Shown here piece after piece: positions 2,060 through 29,587 of a stretch of DNA of 39,277 bases (position 1 is the stretch's first letter; the number at the start of each line of letters is the position of its first letter). A program made the position numbers and the translations under genes. The notes beneath the pieces are model-generated. The model was not told where the DNA came from. It saw nothing but the letters and a program-made list of their open reading frames with translations, and searched no databases. Source of the DNA: Microscillaceae bacterium (GTDB lineage: Bacteria; Bacteroidota; Bacteroidia; Cytophagales; Microscillaceae); contig JAAUUB010000012.1 of the NCBI GenBank assembly GCA_012031215.1, positions 1 to 39,277 of the forward strand. Reading direction: 5' to 3'.

Positions 2060-3796
2060 TCAATGTTCCTGCCGCAATTTACTCTGCCAGAAGCCGAAGC
2101 TAAAATAGATGCCCAGGCCCACCAGCATCCAGAGGCCAAAGCCTATCCAGTTGTGAATGCCCAGTTCGGTCATTAGGTAGAAATTGGTCAATAAGCCCAT
2201 CACCGGAATCAGAGAAAGTTTTTTGGTGAGGCAGAAATAACTGATAATCAGGCAAAAAATCACGAAAAGCCAAAGCGGAATACGATGAAAAAATGAGCCC
2301 CAAAAGCCTTCGCCGGTGTCCTGAAAGCTGAAAAATGCCCACATATTTTCCCGATTATAGGCATACAGCAAAGCCACTAGCCCCAGCAACAGGCCCGGCA
2401 CAATCCACTGGCTATTGATATAGGGCACACGAAAGCGCTGGGCGGCTCCTTCATAAGTGGGGTTGGTTTCCAGCAGCAACACCCCCCCCTGACACAATGG
2501 CAAAGGCAAAAAGGGTTCCGATGCTGGTCAGGTCGGTTACTTCGGTCAGGTTGAGAAAAAGGGCCGGAATGGCCACCAACAGCCCGGTGGCAATGGTTGC
2601 GACGTAGGGGGTTTTGAAGCGAGGATGAATCTTGGCAAAAGCCCGGGGCAATAAACCGTCGCGGCTCATGGTCATCAAAATTCGGGGCTGCCCAATCTGG
2701 AAAACTAAAAATACACTGGTAATGGCCACAATGGCGCTCATCGCCACGATGCCGGCCATGAAATTGAGGTTCGTCTCAGCAAAGACGTGTGCCAGGGGGT
2801 CGCCTACGGCCAGGTCTTTGTAGTTGACCATGCCTGTCAGGATGAGGGCAATCAGGATATACAAGACCGTACAGATAATGAGGGCATAAATCATGGCCCG
2901 GGGCAGGTCGCGTTGGGGGTTTTTGCATTCTTCGGCGGTGGTAGAAATGGCATCGAAACCAATGTAGGCAAAAACACGGCGGATACGCCTTTGAGCACTC
3001 CGGTAACCCCATTGGGGGCAAAGGGCGACCAGTTTTCCGGCTTTACATAAAAAGCCCCTACTACGATGACGAGCAAGACCACCGCCAGCTTGATGAGCAC
3101 CATCACATTGCCCGCATTTTTGGATTCTTTGATGCCCACATATACCAGGGCGGTAATGGCTACGGTAATCAACAAGGCCGGAAAATCGGCCACCAGTTTA
3201 AAACTACCACTGAGCGCGGGCGCGGTTTGCCAGGCGCGGTGGGCCTCCTGAATGTGGATAGGCAGCTCATTCATAGCCACGCCTGCCGCCATTTGTGTGC
3301 TTGCTTCCTGAAAGCCCCGGTAGGCTGAAAGATAATCCATGGTGAGGTAATCGGGAATTTTTAGTCCCAAACCACTGAGCAGGCCCGTAAAATAATCGGA
3401 CCAGGAAATGGCTACGGCGATGTTACCGATGGCGTATTCCATCACCAGGGCCCAGCCCAGTACCCAGGCCATCAGTTCGCCAAAGGTAGTGTAAGCGTAA
3501 GTATAGGCACTCCCGCTAATGGGAATGGTAGAGGCAAATTCGGCATAGCAAAGGGCCGAAAAAAGGCAGGCAATGGCCGTGAATATGAACAAAAACACCA
3601 CGGCTGGCCCCCCGTTAAAGGAAGCATTGCCAATGGTGCTAAAAATACCGGCCCCAACAATAGCGGCGATGCCCAGCGAGACCAGGTCGCGCAGTTGGAG
3701 GCTTTTATGCAATTGCCCCCCTTCGTTTTCTTGCTGGCGAAGCTCGGCCAAAATTTGCCCAACGTTCTTTTTGCGAAATAAGCCTTTCAAAATCAA
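2060..3796 (-). CDS. APC-family amino acid permease (cationic amino acid transporter type), two frameshifts
   Basis: An inner-membrane amino acid/cation symporter of the APC superfamily. Three reading frames join into one protein of about 578 residues. The N-terminal part (3796 to about 2975) has GIAAIVGAGIFSTIG, the glycine-rich first helix of APC carriers, and several later helices. The middle begins AYIGFDAISTTAEECKNP, the conserved mid-protein signature of this family. The C-terminal part ends in GIYFSFGFWQSKL. The breaks are at 2970-2974 (A5; a sixth A restores FFAYIGFD) and 2482-2489 (C8; seven C restore VSGGVLLLE). Both look like homopolymer errors, so I treat the gene as intact. The carried amino acid cannot be read from sequence. 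It lies downstream of the patatin gene on the same strand with a 73-base gap. Confidence 0.9.
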
Positions 3797-3869
3797 TCGT
3801 TTGTTTTGGATTAGAAAGGCGAATTAAAGGCAATATTTTGATTTATGGAAATCTGCGGCCTTTTTATTC

Positions 3870-6543: not shown

Positions 6544-9384
6544 CTAGTTAAGCAGTTGGTCAAAAGTCAGACTGAGGTAATACAAACCACCAATTTCGGG
6601 GTTGCCAAATCCAGTGGTGTAGTATTGATTCAGAAGATTGACCGCGCCCAGCTTCACGATGGTTTTGAGTTTAGACATTTTGTAGCTTATCTGGGCATCC
6701 AGGGTATGATAGGCGGGCACATCGCCCACACCAAAGGTAGATTCCCAGACAAAATCATTCTGCCAGTGCCAGGTCAGGCTGAAGCCAGCGTTTTTATAAA
6801 CGTTTCGGTTTGAGAGGCTTATATTGGTGCGATAGTCAGGGGCATTGAAGCGCGACTGAAAGCCGGGGGGCAGGTTGCTTCGGTCTAGTTCATTATAGGC
6901 GATGTTGCCACTGACTACATAGCCGCGAGGGCCCTGGTAGTCAAGGCTCAATGCCCAGCCATAGGCGCTCACTTCCTGGTCGAGGCTGACGGCGCTCAGG
7001 AATTTTTCGGGGCTGCCATCTTCGCGAAAACGCCCGAAGGCCTGGTTGGCAATAAAGCCATTGTAGGTATTGTAATAAGCATAAAAATCCAGGAGGACAT
7101 TTTTGTCAAAGAGGCCCTTATAGCCAATTTCCCAGGCCACTACGCGCTCGGGTCTGAATTCGGGAAAGACATATTCGTCTTGCGAAAGGTCAGGCTGGCC
7201 CGTGATAGGGTTAGGGCTATCGAGGGGATAGACCGGATTTTCGGCCAGGCCACCGGGGCGAAAACGGGGCAGGCCGCCAATGACTTGAAAAATCCCTACG
7301 TTCAGATTGGTAAACTGGTCGGCCATAGAAGGGAAGCGGAAAGCCGTTTGAGCCGAACCACGGAGAAAATGCCGCTTTTTGGCATCCAGGGTGTAAACCA
7401 CCGAGGCCCGGGGGGTGAATCGGCCTTCAAAATTGCTGTTTTTGTCATAGCGAGCGGTGCCATTAAATTTGAGACGATCGCCCAGCATTTTTTTAGATAC
7501 CTGGACATAGGCCCCAAACTCGCGGATGTCGTGGGGGTCGCCCAGGGGGTCGCCAAAAATAGTCCCTTCGCTGTTGATGCGATAGATGCGATAGCTCATG
7601 CCGGCCAGGATGTCGGCGAACTTAAAAAAGTCGCTGAAGTTATACATCGCTTCTACATTATACATCTGGCTTTTGTCAATGACCCGAGTGCCTCGGATGG
7701 TGTTGCCAGTCTCGAGGGCTGGGAAGGTTTCGGTAACGGGGCGACTGGTAATCTGGTTGAGGGCTTGCTCAAAACGGGGCTCGCCGGGCAGCCAGCGATA
7801 AGGCAAGGTAGGGTTGATGATGTTGTTATTGGCATCGCGGTTGTCGGCGGTGTAGCGGGCCGAAATCAGGGCGACCTCCTGAGGATTGCCCAGCAGCCGG
7901 GCCGTGGTATAGCTGGCAATAAAATCGGCATACCAGTTTTCGCTGGTTTTCCAGGATTCATTGATTTGCGAAGCCGTAGTACCGACATCATAGGAGTCGC
8001 CGGCGTTTTCGCCTACACTCCAGAGGCGGACGAAGAACTTTGGCCCCCGGACTTCCAGCTTGGCACTATAGAGCGTAAAATCAACCAGCGAAAAACGGTT
8101 GCTGGCCGTGTAAACGCTCGTGCCGCGGCCAAAGCCACCCTGGGCCAGCATTTCTACATTTTCGGTCAGGCGGTAGTGAAGCGAAATCCCCCCCTTGAGG
8201 CTTTCGGTATTGTAGTCAGCCAGGTTGCGCTCTTGGTAGCCAGTGCGGGTGATGACGGTGCTTTGGGTAGGAAAAAGATTAAAAGCTTGCTGAAAAGCGG
8301 CCTGGTATTCGGGCGTGCCAGGCGCAAAGCCCTGGGCAGCGGCATAGCCTTCGGCAGTCGGAATACGAATGGCATCGTCGCTAAGGTCCACATCGGCAAA
8401 AGACTCGTCCCCGTAGGTATGCACCCCGTCGTAGCCACTACTGCTGTTGTGGTCAGCATTGGGGCCGTTCAGGTTGTTATTGTCGCGAAAATCGGTGGCG
8501 TGCCAGTCCAGGGCCGTCAGGTAGCCAAAATTGATTTTAAAGGCAAAGCGGTCGTTGAGGGCCTTGGCATAGCGCAGGTTAAATTCATACATCCCGGCGG
8601 GCTGGTCGCGGTAATTGGCCCCAAGGTGCATGGCCCCGGTTTGCAAAGAGGCACTCAGGCCCTGGTAGTCAAAAGGATTTTTAGAGCTTACCAGGATGGT
8701 TCCGTTGACCCCACCCGGGCCATAGAGCGCCGAGGAAGCCCCCACCAGCAATTCTACACTTTCTACATCCAACTGGGAAGAACCGACAATATTTCCTGCC
8801 GGAAAATTAAGCCCCGGCGGGGCATTGTCTATCCCGTCAATGTATTGGGTAACCCGGTAATTGGTATTGCCATTGAAGCCCCGGGTGTTGGGGGTGATAA
8901 ACAAAAGACTTTGCTGGCCCATATCCACGCCCTTAAGGTTGCGCAAGGCATCATAGAAATTGGCTGCCGAAGTATTTCGAATTTCCAAAATACCCAGCCG
9001 CTCTATGCTGACCGGCGACTCAAGCACACTTTCTTCATACCGCGAAGCAGCCACGATAATCTCGCGCCCCAGCAAGGTTTCTTCTTCCAGTTGAATGGTC
9101 AGGAGGGCATTGGCCTCACTTACTTCTATTTCGGTCATCCGGTAGCCGATACTACTAAAAATCAGCGTGAAAGGCGGAGGCGTTTTGGTTTTGAGCACAA
9201 AATTCCCCTGCACATCCGAAGTAGTGCCCGTAACTTTGTCTTTGAGGGTGATGTTGACCCCTATCAGGGCTTCTCCGGTTTTGGCATCCTTGACTTGTCC
9301 CTTTATCAGGGTTTCTTGGGCCAAAAGTGGCCCAAAGGAAAGAAGGGCCAAAAAAAAGAGGATAAAGCAGTAATTTTTTTTCAT
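6544..9384 (-). CDS. TonB-dependent outer-membrane receptor with carboxypeptidase-regulatory-like N-terminal domain
   Basis: An outer-membrane beta-barrel that imports a ligand using TonB/proton-motive energy. The 946 residues show a signal peptide (hydrophobic core ILFFLALLSF, cleavage near LLAQ), then a CarboxypepD_reg-like beta-sandwich at about 25-105 (IKGQVKDAKTGEALIGVNI). The plug follows at about 115-235 (ESPVSIERLG, NTRGFNGNTNY, VELLVGASSALYGPGGVNG), then the barrel to the C-terminus, ending in aromatic strands (GLYYLSLTFDQLLN). The plug and barrel are complete and free of frameshifts. No SusD-like lipoprotein is adjacent, so this is not a classic polysaccharide-utilisation pair; siderophore, vitamin or peptide uptake are all possible. 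The gene stands alone between two intergenic regions and has its own terminator. Confidence 0.93.
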   Translation of the reverse strand: MKKNYCFILFFLALLSFGPLLAQETLIKGQVKDAKTGEALIGVNITLKDKVTGTTSDVQGNFVLKTKTPPPFTLIFSSIGYRMTEIEVSEANALLTIQLEEETLLGREIIVAASRYEESVLESPVSIERLGILEIRNTSAANFYDALRNLKGVDMGQQSLLFITPNTRGFNGNTNYRVTQYIDGIDNAPPGLNFPAGNIVGSSQLDVESVELLVGASSALYGPGGVNGTILVSSKNPFDYQGLSASLQTGAMHLGANYRDQPAGMYEFNLRYAKALNDRFAFKINFGYLTALDWHATDFRDNNNLNGPNADHNSSSGYDGVHTYGDESFADVDLSDDAIRIPTAEGYAAAQGFAPGTPEYQAAFQQAFNLFPTQSTVITRTGYQERNLADYNTESLKGGISLHYRLTENVEMLAQGGFGRGTSVYTASNRFSLVDFTLYSAKLEVRGPKFFVRLWSVGENAGDSYDVGTTASQINESWKTSENWYADFIASYTTARLLGNPQEVALISARYTADNRDANNNIINPTLPYRWLPGEPRFEQALNQITSRPVTETFPALETGNTIRGTRVIDKSQMYNVEAMYNFSDFFKFADILAGMSYRIYRINSEGTIFGDPLGDPHDIREFGAYVQVSKKMLGDRLKFNGTARYDKNSNFEGRFTPRASVVYTLDAKKRHFLRGSAQTAFRFPSMADQFTNLNVGIFQVIGGLPRFRPGGLAENPVYPLDSPNPITGQPDLSQDEYVFPEFRPERVVAWEIGYKGLFDKNVLLDFYAYYNTYNGFIANQAFGRFREDGSPEKFLSAVSLDQEVSAYGWALSLDYQGPRGYVVSGNIAYNELDRSNLPPGFQSRFNAPDYRTNISLSNRNVYKNAGFSLTWHWQNDFVWESTFGVGDVPAYHTLDAQISYKMSKLKTIVKLGAVNLLNQYYTTGFGNPEIGGLYYLSLTFDQLLN

Positions 9385-9686: not shown

Positions 9687-10081
9687 ATGTATATTTCCAA
9701 ACAACTGTTTTGCTGGATATGCCTGGGAATACTGGGGCTTTCAGCTTGCGAAGGGCAAAACCAGGCGGTACTTTCGGCCAAGGACTTTCAACAAAAAAAT
9801 AAAAGCCACGGCCGGAGTGCAATTATTGGATGTGCGTAGCCCGGAGGAGTTTGCGCAGGGCTATATCTCCGGAGCCAAAAACATCAACTACAGTTCATTG
9901 GATTTTCGGACGCAGGTCGCCAAATTGGACAAAAAAACGCCCGGTCTTTGTCTATTGCCTGAGCGGCATCCGAAGTGGGCGGGCGGCTAGTATCTTGCGC
10001 GAAATGGGCTTTGAGGTCCAAGACCTTGCGGGCGGCTTCAGGGCCTGGTCCAGCCAGGGCCTACCCATCGAAAAGCCCTGA
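9687..10081 (+). CDS. Rhodanese-like domain lipoprotein, two homopolymer frameshifts
   Basis: A single rhodanese module anchored as a lipoprotein. From ATG 9687 the frame gives a signal sequence ending in the lipobox LSAC. The shift at 9793-9799 (A7; six A restore the frame) leads into LLDVRSPEEFAQGYISGA, and a second at 9931-9937 (A7) leads into the active-site loop VYCLSGIRSGRAA, whose cysteine would carry the persulfide. It ends AGGFRAWSSQGLP, as rhodaneses do. The repaired length is about 130 residues, normal for one module after a signal peptide. The native role may be sulfane-sulfur handling in the periplasm. It is followed after 33 bases by the small gene at 10115 and after that by a CxxCH lipoprotein, all on the same strand, so an operon is likely. 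Confidence 0.85.
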
Positions 10082-10114
10082 GCTTATTTTTAACCATTTG
10101 AAAACAAAAGCAAA

Positions 10115-10291
10115 ATGGAAAATATTGACCCGCAAATCTACACTGAGATTGAGCAGATGATTAGCAGTTCGGACAGCGTCGTGGGCATTGATGCCAAGAA
10201 AACCCACATCATCATTATCCACAAACTGATGGCGATTGAAAAACGCCTGGCTGCCCTAGAAGCCGCCCTGCCAACCGAAAAGCAGGAATAA
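10115..10291 (+). CDS. Small conserved-looking protein, 58 residues, function unknown
   Basis: ATG 10115 to TAA 10289-10291. The product has an acidic start (MENIDPQIYTEIEQM), then SSSDSVVGIDAKKTH, an IIII stretch and a helical, charged end (LMAIEKRLAALEA). There is no signal peptide and no known domain I can name; the composition suggests a short helical hairpin or a small dimerising protein. The tight packing (33 bases after the rhodanese gene, 11 bases before the next ATG) and the clean frame support it as a real gene. I believe similar small proteins exist in other Bacteroidota, but this is from memory and would need a search. Confidence 0.65.
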   Translation: MENIDPQIYTEIEQMISSSDSVVGIDAKKTHIIIIHKLMAIEKRLAALEAALPTEKQE

Positions 10292-10302
10292 AACGTACAG
10301 CC

Positions 10303-10899
10303 ATGAAAAATATCCTTCCCTTTGCCCTGGGGCTGTGGGGGGCGGTGGTTTTGTTTCAATGCCAGGCCCCTTCCCAGGAAAAATTTAGTCCCGAAGAAGA
10401 AAAAATATACCTGAGCCGGGGCAAGCAAATTACTGAGGTCAGTTTTGCCGTTTTGAGCAAGGCCCTTTCCGAGGCCATTGCCCAAAAGGGGGTGTCGGGG
10501 GCAGTGGATTATTGCCACTTGAAGGCCTTTCCTTTGATGGATTCGCTGGCCGAGGCCCATCGGGTCATCCTCAAACGAGTGAGCCAAAAAGCCCGCAACC
10601 CAGTGGATGCGCCTGATTCTCTGGAGAAGGTGCTTTTGGAGGCCTATGCCTCCCAAAAGGTCCGAGGGGAGGATTTGCGTCCACAACTGGCCCGGCTGCC
10701 GGGGGGCAAGGTGTTATTCACGGCTCCCATCCTGCTCAAGCCAATGTGCCTCAACTGCCATGGGCTTCCCCAAAAAGACATTGCCCCAGCCACCCTGGCC
10801 CGGATTCAGCAAAAATATCCCCAAGACCTGGCCACAGGCTACCGAATCGGTGATTTGCGCGGCATGTGGGCCATTACATTTTTTGAGAAGCCCCGCTAA
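10303..10899 (+). CDS. Tll0287-like (DUF3365) lipoprotein with CxxCH haem-binding motif
   Basis: A predicted exported lipoprotein of 198 residues with lipobox LFQC near residue 20. The body matches the Tll0287-like/DUF3365 domain: an N-terminal helical region (AVDYCHLKAFPLMDSLAE), then RVSQKARNPVDAPD, where this family has its conserved R-N-P segment, and MCLNCHG near residue 148, a c-type haem attachment site. In this family the domain holds a covalently bound haem and often precedes sensor kinases; here it stands alone. The role may be redox or gas sensing, or electron transfer in the periplasm. It is the third gene of the run starting at 9687. Confidence 0.85.
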   Translation: MKNILPFALGLWGAVVLFQCQAPSQEKFSPEEEKIYLSRGKQITEVSFAVLSKALSEAIAQKGVSGAVDYCHLKAFPLMDSLAEAHRVILKRVSQKARNPVDAPDSLEKVLLEAYASQKVRGEDLRPQLARLPGGKVLFTAPILLKPMCLNCHGLPQKDIAPATLARIQQKYPQDLATGYRIGDLRGMWAITFFEKPR

Positions 10900-11617: not shown

Positions 11618-12468
11618 ATGAGGCACACACGCTTATTTTTTCCTCTCTTTTTAGGCATTTGGGGCTTTTTTTCTCTTACAGCCCAGGCCCAGGAAGATGA
11701 GTTTCAGGTCTTGAAAGTGAACAATGGAAAAATCATCGTGGCCGAGACCGGAGCCGTGCTTCAAAAGGGAGATGTGATTTTGATAGACGACATCTTGTAT
11801 TTTAGCACCGATTCAACGGAGGCAGCACTTTTCAATCCGGAGAGAGGGCTTCTTGTATTAAGGCCCACCAAAGTACTGGGCGGCAGCACCCGGGCGATGG
11901 AAGATGAATATTGGGCCAAAGAAAATATGCAAACCCTGCAAAACTTATCCCTTTCGCGAACACAGCTTATTCTGAACGAGCGCGACTTGCTGGCGCACTT
12001 TTCCGAAGGCCAGTATTTTATTTTTGGGGGTTCTATCAAGCTGATTATCAATCCTAAATACCTCCCTTTGGGGCCAGATAAATACTTTATGATAAAGTAT
12101 GTTTATGAGCAGAAAATCATTGAAAAAAACTACCTCACCAACTGGATACTTTGTTCATTATCCAGGATTCACTTTTTCAGTTAGGAAGCACCCGCATCAA
12201 TGTCCAGCAGGCCCGCGATTTTGAGATTTTTTATACCGATACCAGCAAACAGGCCGCCCAAAAGCTTAGTAATTTTTTTCCAGTCTTTCTGAACGATGCC
12301 CAACTTGAACAGGAGATAGGCCCAATGATAAGGGCTTTACAAACTCGTGAAATCAATGCCGAATCTCTGGCAGACAATATTATTGCGTATTTTAATGAAT
12401 TTTATGAGGCCCAACCTGTGAAACTAGATGTGATGGATTGGCTACGGGAAAAGTATGGCATTCGCTAA
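11618..12468 (+). CDS. Secreted protein of unknown function, one frameshift
   Basis: I do not recognise the family. A signal peptide (FLGIWGFFSLTAQAQ) is followed by a beta-rich segment (FQVLKVNNGKIIVAETG, VLQKGDVILIDDIL), a helical stretch after about residue 95, and a second beta region (EGQYFIFGGSIKLI). The frame breaks at 12144-12145: one more G gives YLTNWDTLFIIQDSLFQLG and joins the second part, which ends MDWLREKYGIR. The joined length is about 283 residues. The start of the mature part resembles the first beta-strands of SH3-like or FHA-like modules only loosely, so I give no function. It stands alone; the 200 bases before it are AT-rich and probably carry its promoter. Confidence 0.75.
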
Positions 12469-19066: not shown

Positions 19067-19450
19067 CTATCGCTTGCGCCCATAACGGATAGGCCCGGCC
19101 CGGTCAAGCAATTGTGCGAATACAAGCGAATCAGGGCTGAGCTTGAGTATCAGGCTGTAAGTAAGGGGGCGGCCATATTCGCGAAACAGCCAAAGGGAAT
19201 CGCCTCGCAACTGATAGGTATAATAAAAGAGCGTATCGAGATGACTGTCTAAAACCAAGTGAAGGCTGTCTTGAAAATACAAAGTGTGGTAAAGGTCGCG
19301 TTCGCCCGATTGCCAGGTGCCTATCAAAAGCTGGGCGGCGGCAGGATGCTGCAAATAAGACGCTTCTCTTGGGCGGCAGCCCTCCAAAGCCACTATGGCG
19401 AGCCAAGCCGTAATCTTCAGGCCCGCACTGGGTATCGAATACTTAAGCAT
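19067..19450 (-). CDS. Small lipoprotein, lipocalin-like pattern, unknown function
   Basis: A protein of 127 residues with a lipobox VALEGC (Cys near residue 25). The mature part has LLIGTWQSGERD, then alternating strands (YHTLYFQDSLHLVL, YYTYQLRGDSLWLF, YSLILKLSPDSLVF), the pattern of short lipocalin-like lipoproteins of Bacteroidota. No active-site motif is visible. Its start lies inside the end of the upstream symporter gene (34-base overlap), so translation may be coupled. Confidence 0.75.
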   Translation of the reverse strand: MLKYSIPSAGLKITAWLAIVALEGCRPREASYLQHPAAAQLLIGTWQSGERDLYHTLYFQDSLHLVLDSHLDTLFYYTYQLRGDSLWLFREYGRPLTYSLILKLSPDSLVFAQLLDRAGPIRYGRKR

Positions 19451-20876
19451 AGCAAGCCCAAAAAAGTGAATAAGCCATTGACCAGCAAAATCTCAAACCC
19501 AAACTGGTAGCCCCAGAGCCATTCTTTTGAGTAGGTGTTCAATACAAAGGCTAAAACTGGTGCCAGCACACAGACCACGGGCACGGCTTTGTCCCAAACC
19601 CCCCGCCGGGTAAACATCCCAAAACTATACAGCCCCAGCAGGGGCCCGTAGGTATAGCCGGCGGCGGTAAATACCTGTCCTAATACATTGCTATTTGGGT
19701 AGGCATCGCTGATTTCTTTAAAAAGCAAAATGAGCAAAACCATGAACACCGAAAACCCAATGTGTACTCTCCGTACCAGCCGTGTTTGTTGGGAAGCCTC
19801 TCTTTTCTCAATGCCCAAAAAGTCGACACAAAAAGAAGTAGTCAGGGCGGCCAGGGCCGAATCGGCGCTAGAATACGTAGCGGCCACAATGCCGAGCAAA
19901 AACATAATCCCGGCAAAAAGCCCAAAATGCTCAAATGCCAGCAAAGGATACAGCGCATCGGTTTTGGCGGGCAGGGCAATGCCTTTGGCCTCGGCAAAGA
20001 GATAGAGCAAAGCGCCCAGGGTGAGAAAAGCCAGATTGACCAACACCAGCACCAGGCTAAACCAAAACATGTTTTTTGGGCATCGGCCAGGGAGCGGCAG
20101 GTCAAGTTTTTTTGCATCATATCCTGGTCAAGGCCAGTCATCACAATGGCAATAAAAGCCCCGGCCAAAAACTGCTTCCAGAAATAAGTGGGCGCTTTGA
20201 TGTCCCAAACCAAGACCTGGGTATAGCCACTTTCTTGCAGGTTTTGCCAAAGCTGGCCCCAGGCCCAGCCCAGTTCTTCCCGAATAAGAAACAAACTGCT
20301 CACTACGGCTAAAAGCATAAAAGCCGTTTGAAAGGTATCCGTCCAAACGATGGTTTTGATGCCGCCCTGGCGGGTATAAACCCAGATGAGCGCAATGCTC
20401 AATACTGCCGTGAGCCAAAAAGGAATGCCTATTCCGGCAAAGCCGACCTGCAAAGCCATGGCCGTCAGAAAAAGCCGAAAAGCCGAGCCGATGCTTCGAG
20501 AAAGCAAAAAGAAAAAAGCCCCCGTTTTATAAGACCAAAAACCAAAGCGAAGCTCCAGGTAAGTATAAATAGAAGTCAGTTGTAGTTTATAATAAAGTGG
20601 AAGCAACAACAAGGCAATCACGGCATAGCCCACCAAATAGCCCAGCACCATCTGAAAATACGCAAACTGCGTGTGGAGCACCGCCCCCGGCACAGACACA
20701 AAAGTTACGCCGGAAAGCGAGGCCCCAATCATTCCAAAAGCCACCAGATACCAGGGCGATTGCCGATTGGCGAGAAAGAAAGTCTGTACGTTGGCCCCCC
20801 GGCTCGTTTGCCGGGCAATCCATAATAAAATTCCAAAATAGAGCGCAATCACGCCCAATACCAGTCCTGGACTCAT
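19417..20876 (-). CDS. Sodium:solute symporter (SSS family), one frameshift
   Basis: An inner-membrane carrier of about 486 residues. The start MSPGLVLGVIALYFGIL (20876) begins helix 1; the open frame to 20966 is an unlikely leader. SSS features are visible: FFLANRQSPWYLVAFGMIGAS and SGVTFVSVPG, the sodium-site region; the long WTDTFQTAFMLLAVV helix; and GLDQDMMQKNLTCRSLADAQK. The break is at 20072-20077 (T6 on the plus strand; a seventh gives DAQKNMFWFSLVL). The rest holds GIVAATYSSADSALAALTTSF, the conserved segment with sodium-coordinating Ser/Thr, and helices to the end. The solute cannot be predicted. The closest relatives by pattern are Bacteroidota symporters of unknown substrate. Confidence 0.9.
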
Positions 20877-20995
20877 TCTTTTTTGGGGGATAAGGCCGGG
20901 CAACTTTGAGGAAATTTTGGTTTTATGCCAACCAAAAGCCCTTTTGCCCAGTTGTAAATCCGGCATTTATGCCTGCAAAACTCCATTTTTTTTTC

Positions 20996-23476: not shown

Positions 23477-23502
23477 TTTGGCCTAATTTGCACATAAATT
23501 TG
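23477..23502 (+). promoter_or_regulatory. Candidate promoter of the symporter gene at 23511
   Basis: TAAATTTG at 23495-23502 matches the -7 consensus, only 8 bases before the ATG, with TTTG at 23477-23480 upstream. Spacing is shorter than usual. If used, the mRNA would be nearly leaderless. Confidence 0.3.
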
Positions 23503-23510
23503 AGAACAAT

Positions 23511-25179
23511 ATGCACCTGGTTGCCCTTGATTTGATTGTTTTGATTGCCTTTGTCCTTCTTTTTTTGATAGTGGGGCTTTATTACACCCGGCAGGCGGGC
23601 CAGGATACGGCCAGCTTTTTTTTGGGGGGGGCGCAACCTGCCCTGGTGGATAGCAGGGACCTCTATGGTGGCCACTACCTTTGCCGCCGATACCCCCTTG
23701 CTGGTAACCGAATTGGTCGCCAACTACGGAGTTAGCGGCAATTGGCTCTGGTGGAATGGCCTGATTGGGGGAATGATTACCACCTTTTTCTTTGCCCGTC
23801 TTTGGCGGCGGGCCAATATTCTCACGGATGTTGCCTTGATTGAATTGCGCTATGGCACTGGCCCGGCAGCCCGTTTTTTACGAGGGTTTAAGGCTGTTTA
23901 TCTAGGCGTTTTGCTCAATTCGGTCATCATCGCCTGGGTCAATATAGCCCTGGGAAAGTTATTGATGGGCTTTTTTGAGGTGCCTCCACAGCATTTAGGG
24001 TGGTATTACCTGCTGGCGATGCTTTTGGTAGGGGTGTATAGCGGGCTTTCGGGCTTGCTGGGGGTGGCGATGACCGATTTTGTGCAGTTTATCACGGCGA
24101 TGCTGGGCACGGTTGTTCTGGCGTTTTTGGTAGTAAATTCAGAAAAAATTGGCGGACTGGCGGGCCTCAAAGCAGCCTTGCCAGCGCAAACGTTTCAATT
24201 TTGGCCCCAGATAGATTTTTCGGGAGAGGGCTTGTTACAAACCTCACAGGTCTTGGTCATCAGCGGGGCCACTTTTTTATCTTACATAGGATTTCAGTGG
24301 TGGGCCAGTTGGTATCCGGGGGCCGAGCCAGGCGGGGGGGGCTATGTGGCCCAAAGAATGATGAGTACCCCCCGCGAGAAAGATGCCCTGAAAGCGACCT
24401 TACTTTTTCAGGTGATGCACTACGCGGTGCGCCCTTTGCCTTGGATTTTGGTAGGACTGGCCTCGGTGGTCTTGTATCCTGAATTGCCCGAAAAGGAAAA
24501 GGGCCTGGGCTATGTGTTTGCGATGCGCGATTTTTTGCCGGATGGCTGGCGGGGCTTGTTGCTGGCGGCTTTTTTGGCGGCCTATATGAGCACCATTTCT
24601 ACCCAGCTCAACTGGGGCAGCAGCTATCTAATCCACGATTTGTATCAGCGCTTTGTGCATCCTCAGGCTTCGGAGCGGCAGTTGGTCCTTTTTTCAAGGC
24701 TCAGTACGCTGGTGCTGATTGTTTGCGCCTGGGGGGTTACTACCCAGATGCAAACCCTGGAAGGTGCTTTTCGCTTTATGGTCAATGCGGGGGCCGGCCT
24801 GGGGGCCGTGTTGATGCTGCGCTGGTATTGGTGGCGCATCAATGCCTGGAGTGAGCTGAGTGCTACTTTTGCCCCCTTGATAGCCTATTCGGTGGCCCTT
24901 TTTGCCTGGAAATGGGATGATACCAGTGCTTTTTTTCTGAGTATTGGTTTTACGACGCTTGTCTGGCTTTTGATTACTTTTTTGACCCGTCCGGTCCCAA
25001 TGGCACAATTGCGTATTTTTTGCCAGCAGGTAGCACCTACAGGCTTTTGGCATCCTGTGTGGCGGGATTTGGGCCAAGCCCCCCCGGTCGCACAAACAGG
25101 CGGTCTTTTGGGGGCCAGTCTTGGGGCTTTGCTGATGGCCTTTGGCGCTTTGTTTACCGCCGGTGCTCTCCTGTTTTAG
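23511..25179 (+). CDS. Sodium:solute symporter (SSS family), second copy type, one frameshift
   Basis: A carrier of about 555 residues, unlike the one at 19417 in detail. The first part (LIVLIAFVLLFLIVGLYYTRQAG) has helix 1; the frame breaks at 23624-23631 (G8; seven G restore SFFLGGRNLPWWIAGTS). The rest starts MVATTFAADTPLLVTELVANYG and continues with helices and GAAFLAAYMSTISTQLNWGSSY-type sequence (at about 24570-24625), the conserved Ser/Thr/Asn sodium-site helix. It ends in helices near LMAFGALFTAGALLF. Tryptophan pairs and the length resemble SSS members found beside glycoside-hydrolase or sugar genes, but none is here, so the solute is unknown. Confidence 0.9.
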
Positions 25180-27466: not shown

Positions 27467-28603
27467 ATGAAAAAAATTAGTATGGATGATTTTACCCATG
27501 TAGAGAGCTTCTTGCCCGTCAAAGAAGTAAAAGATAATTTGCGGAGATATTGGGAAAATGAGCTGATACAGTTTACCCTGCGCCCTTACTTAAAAAAATG
27601 CCTGGCAAACCTGCCCAAAGGGCAAGGACTTCGGATTTTGGAAATCGGAGTTGGCCCCCGGGATGCTTACCGCCTCCTTACCCAAATCCCGGCCCAGGCC
27701 TCTTCCTTAGACCTGGACGTGGAGTATGTAGTGCAGCCCGGACAAATTAGCCTCTATCTGGGCATAGACCCGGAGTATGACTGGGTGGAGCGCGCCAATG
27801 AAATTCACCGCTATGACAAGAGAGTAAGGTTTATCCGCGCCGATTTTGAGCGCGGAATAGGCATACTCAAACAGGCCGAAGCCCCTTTTGACCTCTATTT
27901 TTCAAAATTTGGCAGTCTGTCCCAACTTCACGAAGACGCACTCAAGCGCTTTCTTATCGACACCTGCGAGCATGCCCGCCCGCATAGCTTATTGTTTCTG
28001 GATTTTAAAGGGGAATATGCGGTGCGTAATCACTCCCTGGAATACACCAAATGTTGGTCTGCCAGAGCGATACAAAGCCTTCTCGAGGAAGTGAAAGCGG
28101 AAAGCGGAGTGGGCCTAAAGACGCTCAAAATATTAGACCGCACGCTTTTGGTCGGCTATCCGGACGAAGCTGAGCAGCCCAAAGCCCTGAATATGCGCAA
28201 AGCCGTCAACCGACTTTTACAAAAAGATGTGCGTACGGATTTGAAAAGCCTCCTTGTCCCGCCTCATTTTGGCCAAGCACTTGCAAAACAATCCGTGCGG
28301 GAATTTTTTCATTACCTGGGGACTTGCTGGAATATCCTGGTGCAATATGCCGAGCATCGGCTTCAATGCGAAACGCCCCCACAGCATGTAGCTTCGTGGG
28401 AGCAGATGCCCCCTTCACTACAGTTTGGCTTGCTCACCCTGGACCGTATCATTCGCGATACCCAGTGGATGGCCTATGGCGACCGGCGCGCTAATTTGAT
28501 AGAACCGCATCTGGCTTATGCCCTTCGAAGCCTGGAGTATGAGTTGCAGGTCGGTCTGGGCTGTGGCGAAGATTTGTGTGTGGTGCTGGAGGTGCAAGCC
28601 TGA
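27467..28603 (+). CDS. Class I SAM-dependent methyltransferase of unknown substrate
   Basis: A protein of about 378 residues from MKKISMDDFTHVESF (27467; an in-frame ATG at 27440 would add nine residues). Motif I for SAM binding is RILEIGVGPRDAYRLL near residue 58, with an acidic loop YLGIDPEYDWVERANEI holding the ribose-binding Asp, and VRFIRADFERG as the next motif. PFDLYFSKFGSLSQLHED fits the post-motif strand and helix. The C-terminal 150 residues (LVPPHFGQALAKQSVREFFHY, and later QFGLLTLDRIIRDTQWM) are helical and specific to this protein. The substrate is unknown. It ends 5 bases before the ABC ATPase gene, so the two are co-transcribed. Confidence 0.85.
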   Translation: MKKISMDDFTHVESFLPVKEVKDNLRRYWENELIQFTLRPYLKKCLANLPKGQGLRILEIGVGPRDAYRLLTQIPAQASSLDLDVEYVVQPGQISLYLGIDPEYDWVERANEIHRYDKRVRFIRADFERGIGILKQAEAPFDLYFSKFGSLSQLHEDALKRFLIDTCEHARPHSLLFLDFKGEYAVRNHSLEYTKCWSARAIQSLLEEVKAESGVGLKTLKILDRTLLVGYPDEAEQPKALNMRKAVNRLLQKDVRTDLKSLLVPPHFGQALAKQSVREFFHYLGTCWNILVQYAEHRLQCETPPQHVASWEQMPPSLQFGLLTLDRIIRDTQWMAYGDRRANLIEPHLAYALRSLEYELQVGLGCGEDLCVVLEVQA

Positions 28604-28608
28604 AGTCC

Positions 28609-29587
28609 ATGCTCGAGGTCCGAAACTTACGCAAAAATTATGGCACGCAAACAGCCGTAGAGAATGTCTCTTTTTCGCTTTCGCCGGGCGAAAAGCTGAT
28701 TTTGCTGGGCACAAGTGGCAGCGGCAAAACCACCACCCTCAAAATGATTAACCGGCTCATAGAGCCAAGTGCCGGGCAAATTTGGTTTGACAACCAGGAT
28801 GCCCGGCAGCAAAACCTGAACACCTGCGCCAGCAAATGGGCTATGTTATCCAGCAAACGGGCCTTTTTCCTCATTTTACGGTGGCCCAAAACATTGCTTT
28901 ACTTCCTAAAATGAAGGGCTGGCCCCGCGCTAAAATCAATGCCCGAATTGATGAACTGCTCTCAACTCTAGGGCTGCCTCCGGAGGAATTTCGCCCCCGC
29001 TTTCCGGATGCCCTGAGTGGAGGTCAAAAACAACGCATTGGTATTGCGCGGGCTTTGGCCATTGACCCCCCCTTTTGCTCATGGACGAACCCTTCGGGGC
29101 CTTAGACCCCATCACCCGTCGGCAGATTCAACACGATTTTAAAACCATCGAAAGCCTGGTTGGCAAAACCTTAGTGATGGTAACGCATGACGTGGGCGAG
29201 GCTTTTCTGATGGGGCAGAAAATTTGCCTGATGGACAAAGGCCGGGTGCAGCAATACGGAACTCCCAAAGAACTGCTTTTTCAACCAGCCAATGATTTTG
29301 TACGCGAATTTTTTAAATCTTCCCGGTTTCAGCTTGAACTTCAGGTGGTTAGCTTAGAAGACCTCTGGGATTTTTTTCCTTCCCGGGCGGCTCAGGTCAC
29401 CGATGGGGCCGAAAGTTGGCCAGTGTTTCCTGCCCCACAGGATGTCTGGTCAGTTTTGGAAATACTCACAGGGGTAGCCAAGCCTTGTTTTTTAATAAGA
29501 AAAAGCAACAACTTGTTCCGATTTGCTTCGCGGGAGGCACTTTTGCCCGCTTTTCAGGCCTGGAAAAAACAGTTTGGCTCGTTTTAA
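28609..29587 (+). CDS. OpuC/ProV-type ABC transporter ATPase, two frameshifts, no adjacent permease
   Basis: An ATP-binding subunit of about 326 residues, closest to the glycine betaine/carnitine/choline importers (OpuCA, OsmV). Walker A GTSGSGKTTT, Q-loop VIQQTGLFPHFTV, signature LSGGQKQRIGIARAL, Walker B LLLMDEPFGALDP and H-loop VMVTHDVGEA are all present. The breaks are at 28823-28824 (one C missing; repair gives NTLRQQMGYVIQQ) and 29066-29072 (C7; eight restore DPPLLLMDEP). The C-terminal 90 residues after FVREFFKSSRFQLEL are where CBS domains lie in osmoregulated relatives, but I see none clearly. Normal systems have permease and binding-protein genes beside it; here the upstream partner is a methyltransferase and the downstream gene is on the other strand. 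Confidence 0.88.

Follow-up and report, generated by a model that had tools for sequence, protein, structure and literature searches.

Does the run of three genes around position 10,000 of a Microscillaceae contig encode parts of one system, and if so, does that system act on sulfur? The window, by which we mean the whole 39,277-nucleotide stretch of DNA analysed, carries on its plus strand a rhodanese gene with a lipoprotein-type start (9687..10081), followed after a gap of 33 bases by an ORF for a 58-aa mini-protein of an unnamed family (10115..10291) and, 11 bases further on, by the gene for a 198-aa stand-alone Tll0287-like c-type haem protein that is a probable lipoprotein (10303..10899). 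A TonB-type receptor identified with Pfam lies upstream on the minus strand (6544-9384), the next plus-strand ORF that we judged to be a gene among the long ORFs starts at 11618, and no regulator or transporter adjoins the run. An earlier note had reported these genes and their gaps as we find them, except that the reading frame of the rhodanese proves to be interrupted. The note had also proposed that the products act jointly in redox or sulfane-sulfur chemistry of the envelope, and gene neighbourhoods in other genomes support such a role. We regard it as well supported that the three-gene run belongs to a sulfur module, and we lean towards reading it as a compact member of a modular sulfane-sulfur (persulfide, thiosulfate) island in Bacteroidota and their kin.

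The rhodanese is split across three frames. Its first frame is a 50-aa ORF with the lipoprotein-type start LSAC (by eye) and a stop at 9839; the domain resumes near 9793 in the second frame and near 9932 in the third, which contains the active loop CLSGIRSGR. A single rhodanese domain with its active-site cysteine loop is therefore encoded here, in a broken frame. Two pieces of it, covering positions 7-58 and 58-101 of the PF00581 profile (E-values of 4.4e-7 and 7.4e-9, both passing the Pfam cut-off), join almost perfectly end to end, so that only the phase is disturbed, and both frame changes fall inside A7 runs (9793-9799 and 9931-9937). Judged by their reading frames, with no family search of the fragments, at least four more genes in the window are split over two or three frames. 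One encodes a permease (2454-3823), two encode symporters (19420-20966; 23487-25176), and another, which runs through three frames, encodes an ABC ATPase (28543-29584). Because of these other split genes, a homopolymer-type sequencing error in the assembly is the likely cause of the frame changes in the rhodanese, and likelier than decay. Two frame changes in one gene could mark a decaying pseudogene, which would leave only the mini-protein gene and the haem gene as a functional unit in the organism, but we consider this very unlikely given that both changes sit in A7 runs and that the rest of the coding sequence is intact with a complete active loop. Programmed slippage at the A7 runs may also be considered, with less weight given the genes split elsewhere in the window.

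The third gene had been described as encoding a CxxCH protein, and this is borne out. Its product matches PF11845 (Tll0287-like, DUF3365, ‘sCache_heme’) with an E-value of 2.7e-18 (a score of 67.2 bits, where the curated cut-off is 24.1) and Tll0287 (5b82) by sequence with an E-value of 8.6e-9. The AlphaFold model built from a 14-row alignment (pLDDT 90) adopts the Cache fold of 5b82, with a Z score of 17.2 and an rmsd of 3.4 over 151 aligned residues, the next row in the search reaching a Z score of 7.5. The haem motif reads MCLNCHG (C149, C152 and H153), and these residues together with C20 and C71 are identical in all 34 aligned rows, one genome being counted twice; in another 14-row alignment, C20 is absent from L201. 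The lipobox is atypical (LFQC, cysteine 20), relatives have canonical boxes, and the protein is, judging by its sequence, a probable lipoprotein anchored via cysteine 20. We infer that C71, which lies upstream of the point where alignments with 5b82 begin, is an axial haem ligand, giving a predicted Cys/His ligation. This cysteine is equally conserved in Tll0287 members without sulfur neighbours, so neither the ligation nor the family in itself implies sulfur.

The Tll0287-like family has been described as Cache domains with covalent haem, and redox-related roles have been proposed for its stand-alone members (PMC12889525, a 2026 preprint). The protein in the window shares with this stand-alone class, and with 5b82, the domain, the fold, the CxxCH motif, a conserved upstream cysteine and the lack of an attached signalling module; it differs in sitting in a run with a rhodanese and an unnamed mini-protein, and the words ‘rhodanese’, ‘thiosulfate’, ‘sulfide’ and ‘operon’ are absent from the main text of that study. 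DUF3365 and rhodanese occur as separate rows of one table in the available part of another (PMC9230427). The earlier note knew of no described system of this composition; the haem family has since proved to be a described one, while the combination of the three genes was not found in the open-licence papers searched.

PF11845 matches are present in 118 of 291 genomes from the order. We compared 71 unique Tll0287 loci: 67 from the order's matches (mostly the stronger ones, many of those left out belonging to the single genus g23), the window itself, and L241, L242 and L252, which were reached via the mini-protein. L208, L232 and L233 were dropped for having no Tll0287 match by our own profile. 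A rhodanese, YeeE or mini-protein gene is located within 3 kb of Tll0287 in nine of the 67 loci (L150, L201, L204, L205, L209, L237, L238, L240 and L243), three of which, L201, L204 and L205, are near-copies of one another within a single genus, and 58 of the 71 loci have no such neighbour. When longer flanks were taken for 20 loci, L150 was seen to have a rhodanese and a YeeE pair and the other 19 had no labelled sulfur gene; the L149 and L154 rows kept their short flanks. A minority of the order's Tll0287 genes thus stand beside rhodanese, YeeE-type sulfur-transport or MBL-rhodanese genes, and the linked rows are not scattered at random over the Tll0287 tree: a clade of 41 rows (98/99) contains none of the 13, and the label changes six times on the tree versus a mean of 12.2 when shuffled, with none of 500 shuffles as low.

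The window's own row groups with L209 and L235 (95/86). L209, from the window's family, encodes on one strand an ArsR-type regulator, an MBL-rhodanese, a rhodanese, Tll0287, Usp and two YeeE proteins, and L235 has no sulfur-type neighbour by the labelling profiles. L238 has an ArsR-type regulator, rhodanese, Tll0287 and thioredoxin in this order. In L201, L204 and L205, the rhodanese adjoining Tll0287 has a lipoprotein-type start like that in the window; several partner rhodaneses (for example in L209 and L243) show no recognizable signal peptide when read by eye, which places part of the module in the cytoplasm. L252 (genome G611, from another family of the phylum) carries a run of MBL-rhodanese, TauE-rhodanese, mini-protein, HiPIP, Tll0287 and rhodanese, in which the HiPIP gene sits between those for the mini-protein and Tll0287. 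These six genes are on one strand within about 7.2 kb (<8 kb).

The mini-protein gene is a real one: its product has a relative at an E-value of 4.1e-10 in a different family of the same order, and 155 stretches in named genomes were confirmed by tblastn. The family motif is S[V/P]VGIDAKKTH (SVVGIDAKKTH in the window), and the alignment shows a pattern of Y9, I12, I16, S18 and S21, next [P/V]VGIDAKKTHI and then a helix; since the motif itself was used in the pattern scan, its invariance is partly ascertainment. The structural model (mean pLDDT 81.8) has a short helix at 6-16 and a long helix at 25-51. Residues A27, H31, I34, L38, I41, L45 and L48, as read from the alignment, lie on one heptad stripe, which makes a helical oligomer with a buried histidine plausible. 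There is no signal peptide by eye. No credible relative was found in Pfam, NCBIfam, PHROGs or PDB sequences. A scan of 66 members returned scattered weak matches only, with one or two members per family; the best hit of a PDB profile search was a coiled coil at an E-value of 0.063, and a fold search gave four matches with a best E-value of 7.1, which says little for so small a helical model. The motif as a text string was not found in the open-licence papers searched. Two identities were considered and not adopted. The best match of the 66-member scan, to the effector-associated domain EAD9, involved one member at 1e-4, and no effector fusion was present in the loci read. A persulfide carrier is rejected, because the mini-protein has no cysteine in the window copy, nor one among the three commonest residues of any alignment column, and so cannot itself carry a persulfide.

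The mini-protein is far more widespread than the three-gene operon. With the window's own genome counted, matches occur in two of 57 relatives and in eight of 390 genomes of the order at an E-value of 0.01, two of these being chance on reading. With a 66-row alignment, 25 of 395 genomes of the phylum sample match at an E-value of 0.001. In the family of G504, which we assign to Balneolaceae because a protein recurs unchanged in a named record (L011, L069), 37 of 92 genomes match, one of them with a short and weak hit. Among named genomes, 155 of the 218 pattern-matched stretches were confirmed by tblastn and 80 were kept. Fourteen phylum labels, one of them doubtful, are represented among the 80, archaea being present with Nitrososphaerota (8) and Woesearchaeota (1). 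The sole Pseudomonadota record, L038, bears the label Rickettsiales but has neighbour clusters in common with L042, a Marinoscillum contig, and is probably mis-binned. Three contig pairs (L047/L051, L046/L089 and L043/L049) were each drawn from one named assembly, both contigs bearing a copy of the gene. Plasmids gave no tblastn match at an E-value of 1e-5. Matches at L009, L010 and L034 were discarded as chance, having no GIDA..TH motif or having internal stops. L010 is the sole match in G003, a genome of the window's family whose locus L209 has the fullest sulfur run in that family, and G003 is accordingly without the mini-protein.

The 58-residue gene, whose absence from relatives the earlier note would have counted against its proposal, is present in them. 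Conservation of gene order, which the note had also raised, holds in part. Genes for the mini-protein and Tll0287 are adjacent in L241, L242 and L243, which represent three further genomes from another family, but in the order DUF6132, mini-protein, Tll0287; a rhodanese gene follows Tll0287 in two of the three (L242 and L243), and the exact uninterrupted order of the window recurs in none of the other loci examined.

To survey the neighbours of the mini-protein, we left out the window copies (L001, L003 and L186), the three chance loci, and the rhodanese and Tll0287 loci L115-L154, leaving 148 loci with a mini-protein gene, of which 109 are unique and 87 have enough flank. A rhodanese lies within 1.3 kb in 20 of these 87, and a rhodanese, MBL-rhodanese, SulP, YeeE or CitMHS-type transporter in 31, with labelling profiles that were built from the same neighbourhoods, examples identified with Pfam, and counts uncorrected for kinship. 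All 28 rhodanese ORFs found are on the same strand as the mini-protein, the window's two pieces being counted as two. By comparison, the genome of the window has 10 PF00581 matches, grouped into seven genes in 4.81 Mb, from which simple arithmetic gives a chance of about 0.5% that a randomly chosen gene has a rhodanese within 1.3 kb. The form of the motif goes with the neighbourhood: sulfur neighbours occur in 20 of 27 loci with VV versus 11 of 60 with PV (Fisher p 1.2e-6, uncorrected for kinship). Among named loci, any sulfur-type gene is found in Balneolota (7/7), Bacteroidota (9/17, mostly SulP), Rhodothermota (1/1) and Woesearchaeota (1/1), and rhodanese itself in 6/7, 1/17, 0/1 and 1/1, respectively. 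By the labelling profiles, none of the 33 loci from nine other phyla has a sulfur-type neighbour. The link between the mini-protein and sulfur genes is real but confined to some phyla.

Within Bacteroidota, Balneolota and Rhodothermota, sulfur-type genes of these kinds are repeatedly found next to the mini-protein gene. Balneolaceae have a run of SulP, CitMHS/TrkA_C, rhodanese and mini-protein; Marivirga L036 has YeeE, YeeE, MBL-rhodanese, a peroxiredoxin-like protein, a methyltransferase and the mini-protein; Saprospiraceae and Phaeodactylibacter have a methyltransferase, DUF983, mini-protein, Crp/Fnr and SulP; and L242 and L243 have DUF6132, mini-protein, Tll0287 and rhodanese. Other settings were also seen. 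SUI1-like genes adjoin the mini-protein in 13 unique loci (L028, L160, L162, L167, L171, L172, L173, L174, L177, L180, L181, L184 and L191), where a VGIDAGKTH variant lies 32-242 bases downstream of a gene for a 74-aa SUI1-like protein (recognized by eye, with no family search). In L035, the closest named relative, the mini-protein lies 44-47 bases behind a P-type ATPase (L035:3440-6132) with heavy-metal HMA and HMBD domains (Pfam). As for two envelope proteins and a cytoplasmic mini-protein forming one system, the partners do recur together, but the mini-protein is not tied to that system, as the 33 loci from nine phyla make plain.

Sulfane-sulfur modules are known to combine MBL-rhodanese proteins of the persulfide-dioxygenase type, rhodaneses, YeeE/YedE proteins and an ArsR-type regulator. 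Relatives of the window's genes stand in such runs (L209, L036 and L252). The window has only the rhodanese of this set, to which it adds the haem lipoprotein and the mini-protein. A second comparison is with TsdA and SoxA. TsdA acts on thiosulfate; its active haem is ligated by Cys and His, and a cysteine S-thiosulfonate occurs as an intermediate (PMC9562282, PMC4423706). A c-type haem, a (here predicted) Cys/His ligation and a sulfur gene setting are common to both. The window's haem protein differs in having one haem in an unrelated Cache fold, and the likeness is one of analogy only.

In our favoured reading as a compact sulfane-sulfur island, sulfane sulfur would be moved within the periplasm by the lipid-anchored rhodanese, the haem protein, likewise lipid-anchored and with a predicted Cys/His ligation, would exchange electrons with reduced or sulfane sulfur or else sense it, and the mini-protein would be a cytoplasmic helical oligomer serving the module as an adaptor or regulator. 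The family membership of the rhodanese and the Tll0287-like gene is established, as is the recurrent adjacency. The particular roles are more tentative: by analogy, the haem protein may act on or sense sulfur species, and that the mini-protein is an adaptor or regulator is a possibility we hold about as loosely. The Tll0287-like protein could instead be a general periplasmic electron carrier or a redox or NO sensor, its adjacency to rhodanese reflecting a broad stress regulon rather than sulfur chemistry. In one stand-alone member, that of Pseudomonas putida, the haem is Cys/His-ligated, NO binding is weak and the behaviour seems redox-like (PMC12889525), most Tll0287 loci (58/71) are without sulfur neighbours, and Usp adjoins Tll0287 in both L209 (Pfam) and L235 (by reading). 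We nevertheless find this rather unlikely: in a subset of loci, rhodanese, YeeE or MBL-rhodanese genes stay beside Tll0287 through independent rearrangements.

There is a substantial chance, if somewhat short of even, that the mini-protein does something general and unrelated to sulfur, for instance as a small helical regulator or a metal-binding oligomer, and comes to lie near sulfur genes through common stress or co-transfer. Its SUI1-like neighbours, the heavy-metal P-type ATPase ahead of it and the 33 loci of nine phyla, all without a sulfur-type gene, fit such a function. What such a function would leave unexplained is the repeated same-strand adjacency to rhodanese, in varied arrangements, in Balneolota, Bacteroidota and the Woesearchaeota record, as well as the association of the VV form of the motif with sulfur neighbours. 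The sulfane-sulfur reading can also be taken further, to a proposal that is speculative and improbable. Rhodanese-linked stand-alone sCache_heme lipoproteins would then form a class of sulfur haemoproteins of their own, the Cache-fold equivalent of TsdA and SoxA and new as such, whose axial cysteine would take sulfane sulfur as a covalent adduct, with sulfur passing to or from the lipid-anchored rhodanese and electrons passing to the respiratory chain (the HiPIP of L252 standing between). The GIDAKKTH mini-protein would serve them as a dedicated partner or sensor in the cytoplasm, drawn from an old family also present in ammonia-oxidising archaea.

That some Tll0287 genes are recurrently linked to genes for rhodanese and sulfur transport suggests a concrete candidate class of substrate for stand-alone haem proteins of this family. 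The mini-protein represents a strongly conserved unnamed family of bacteria and archaea, for which the sulfur-linked subset offers a first functional handle.
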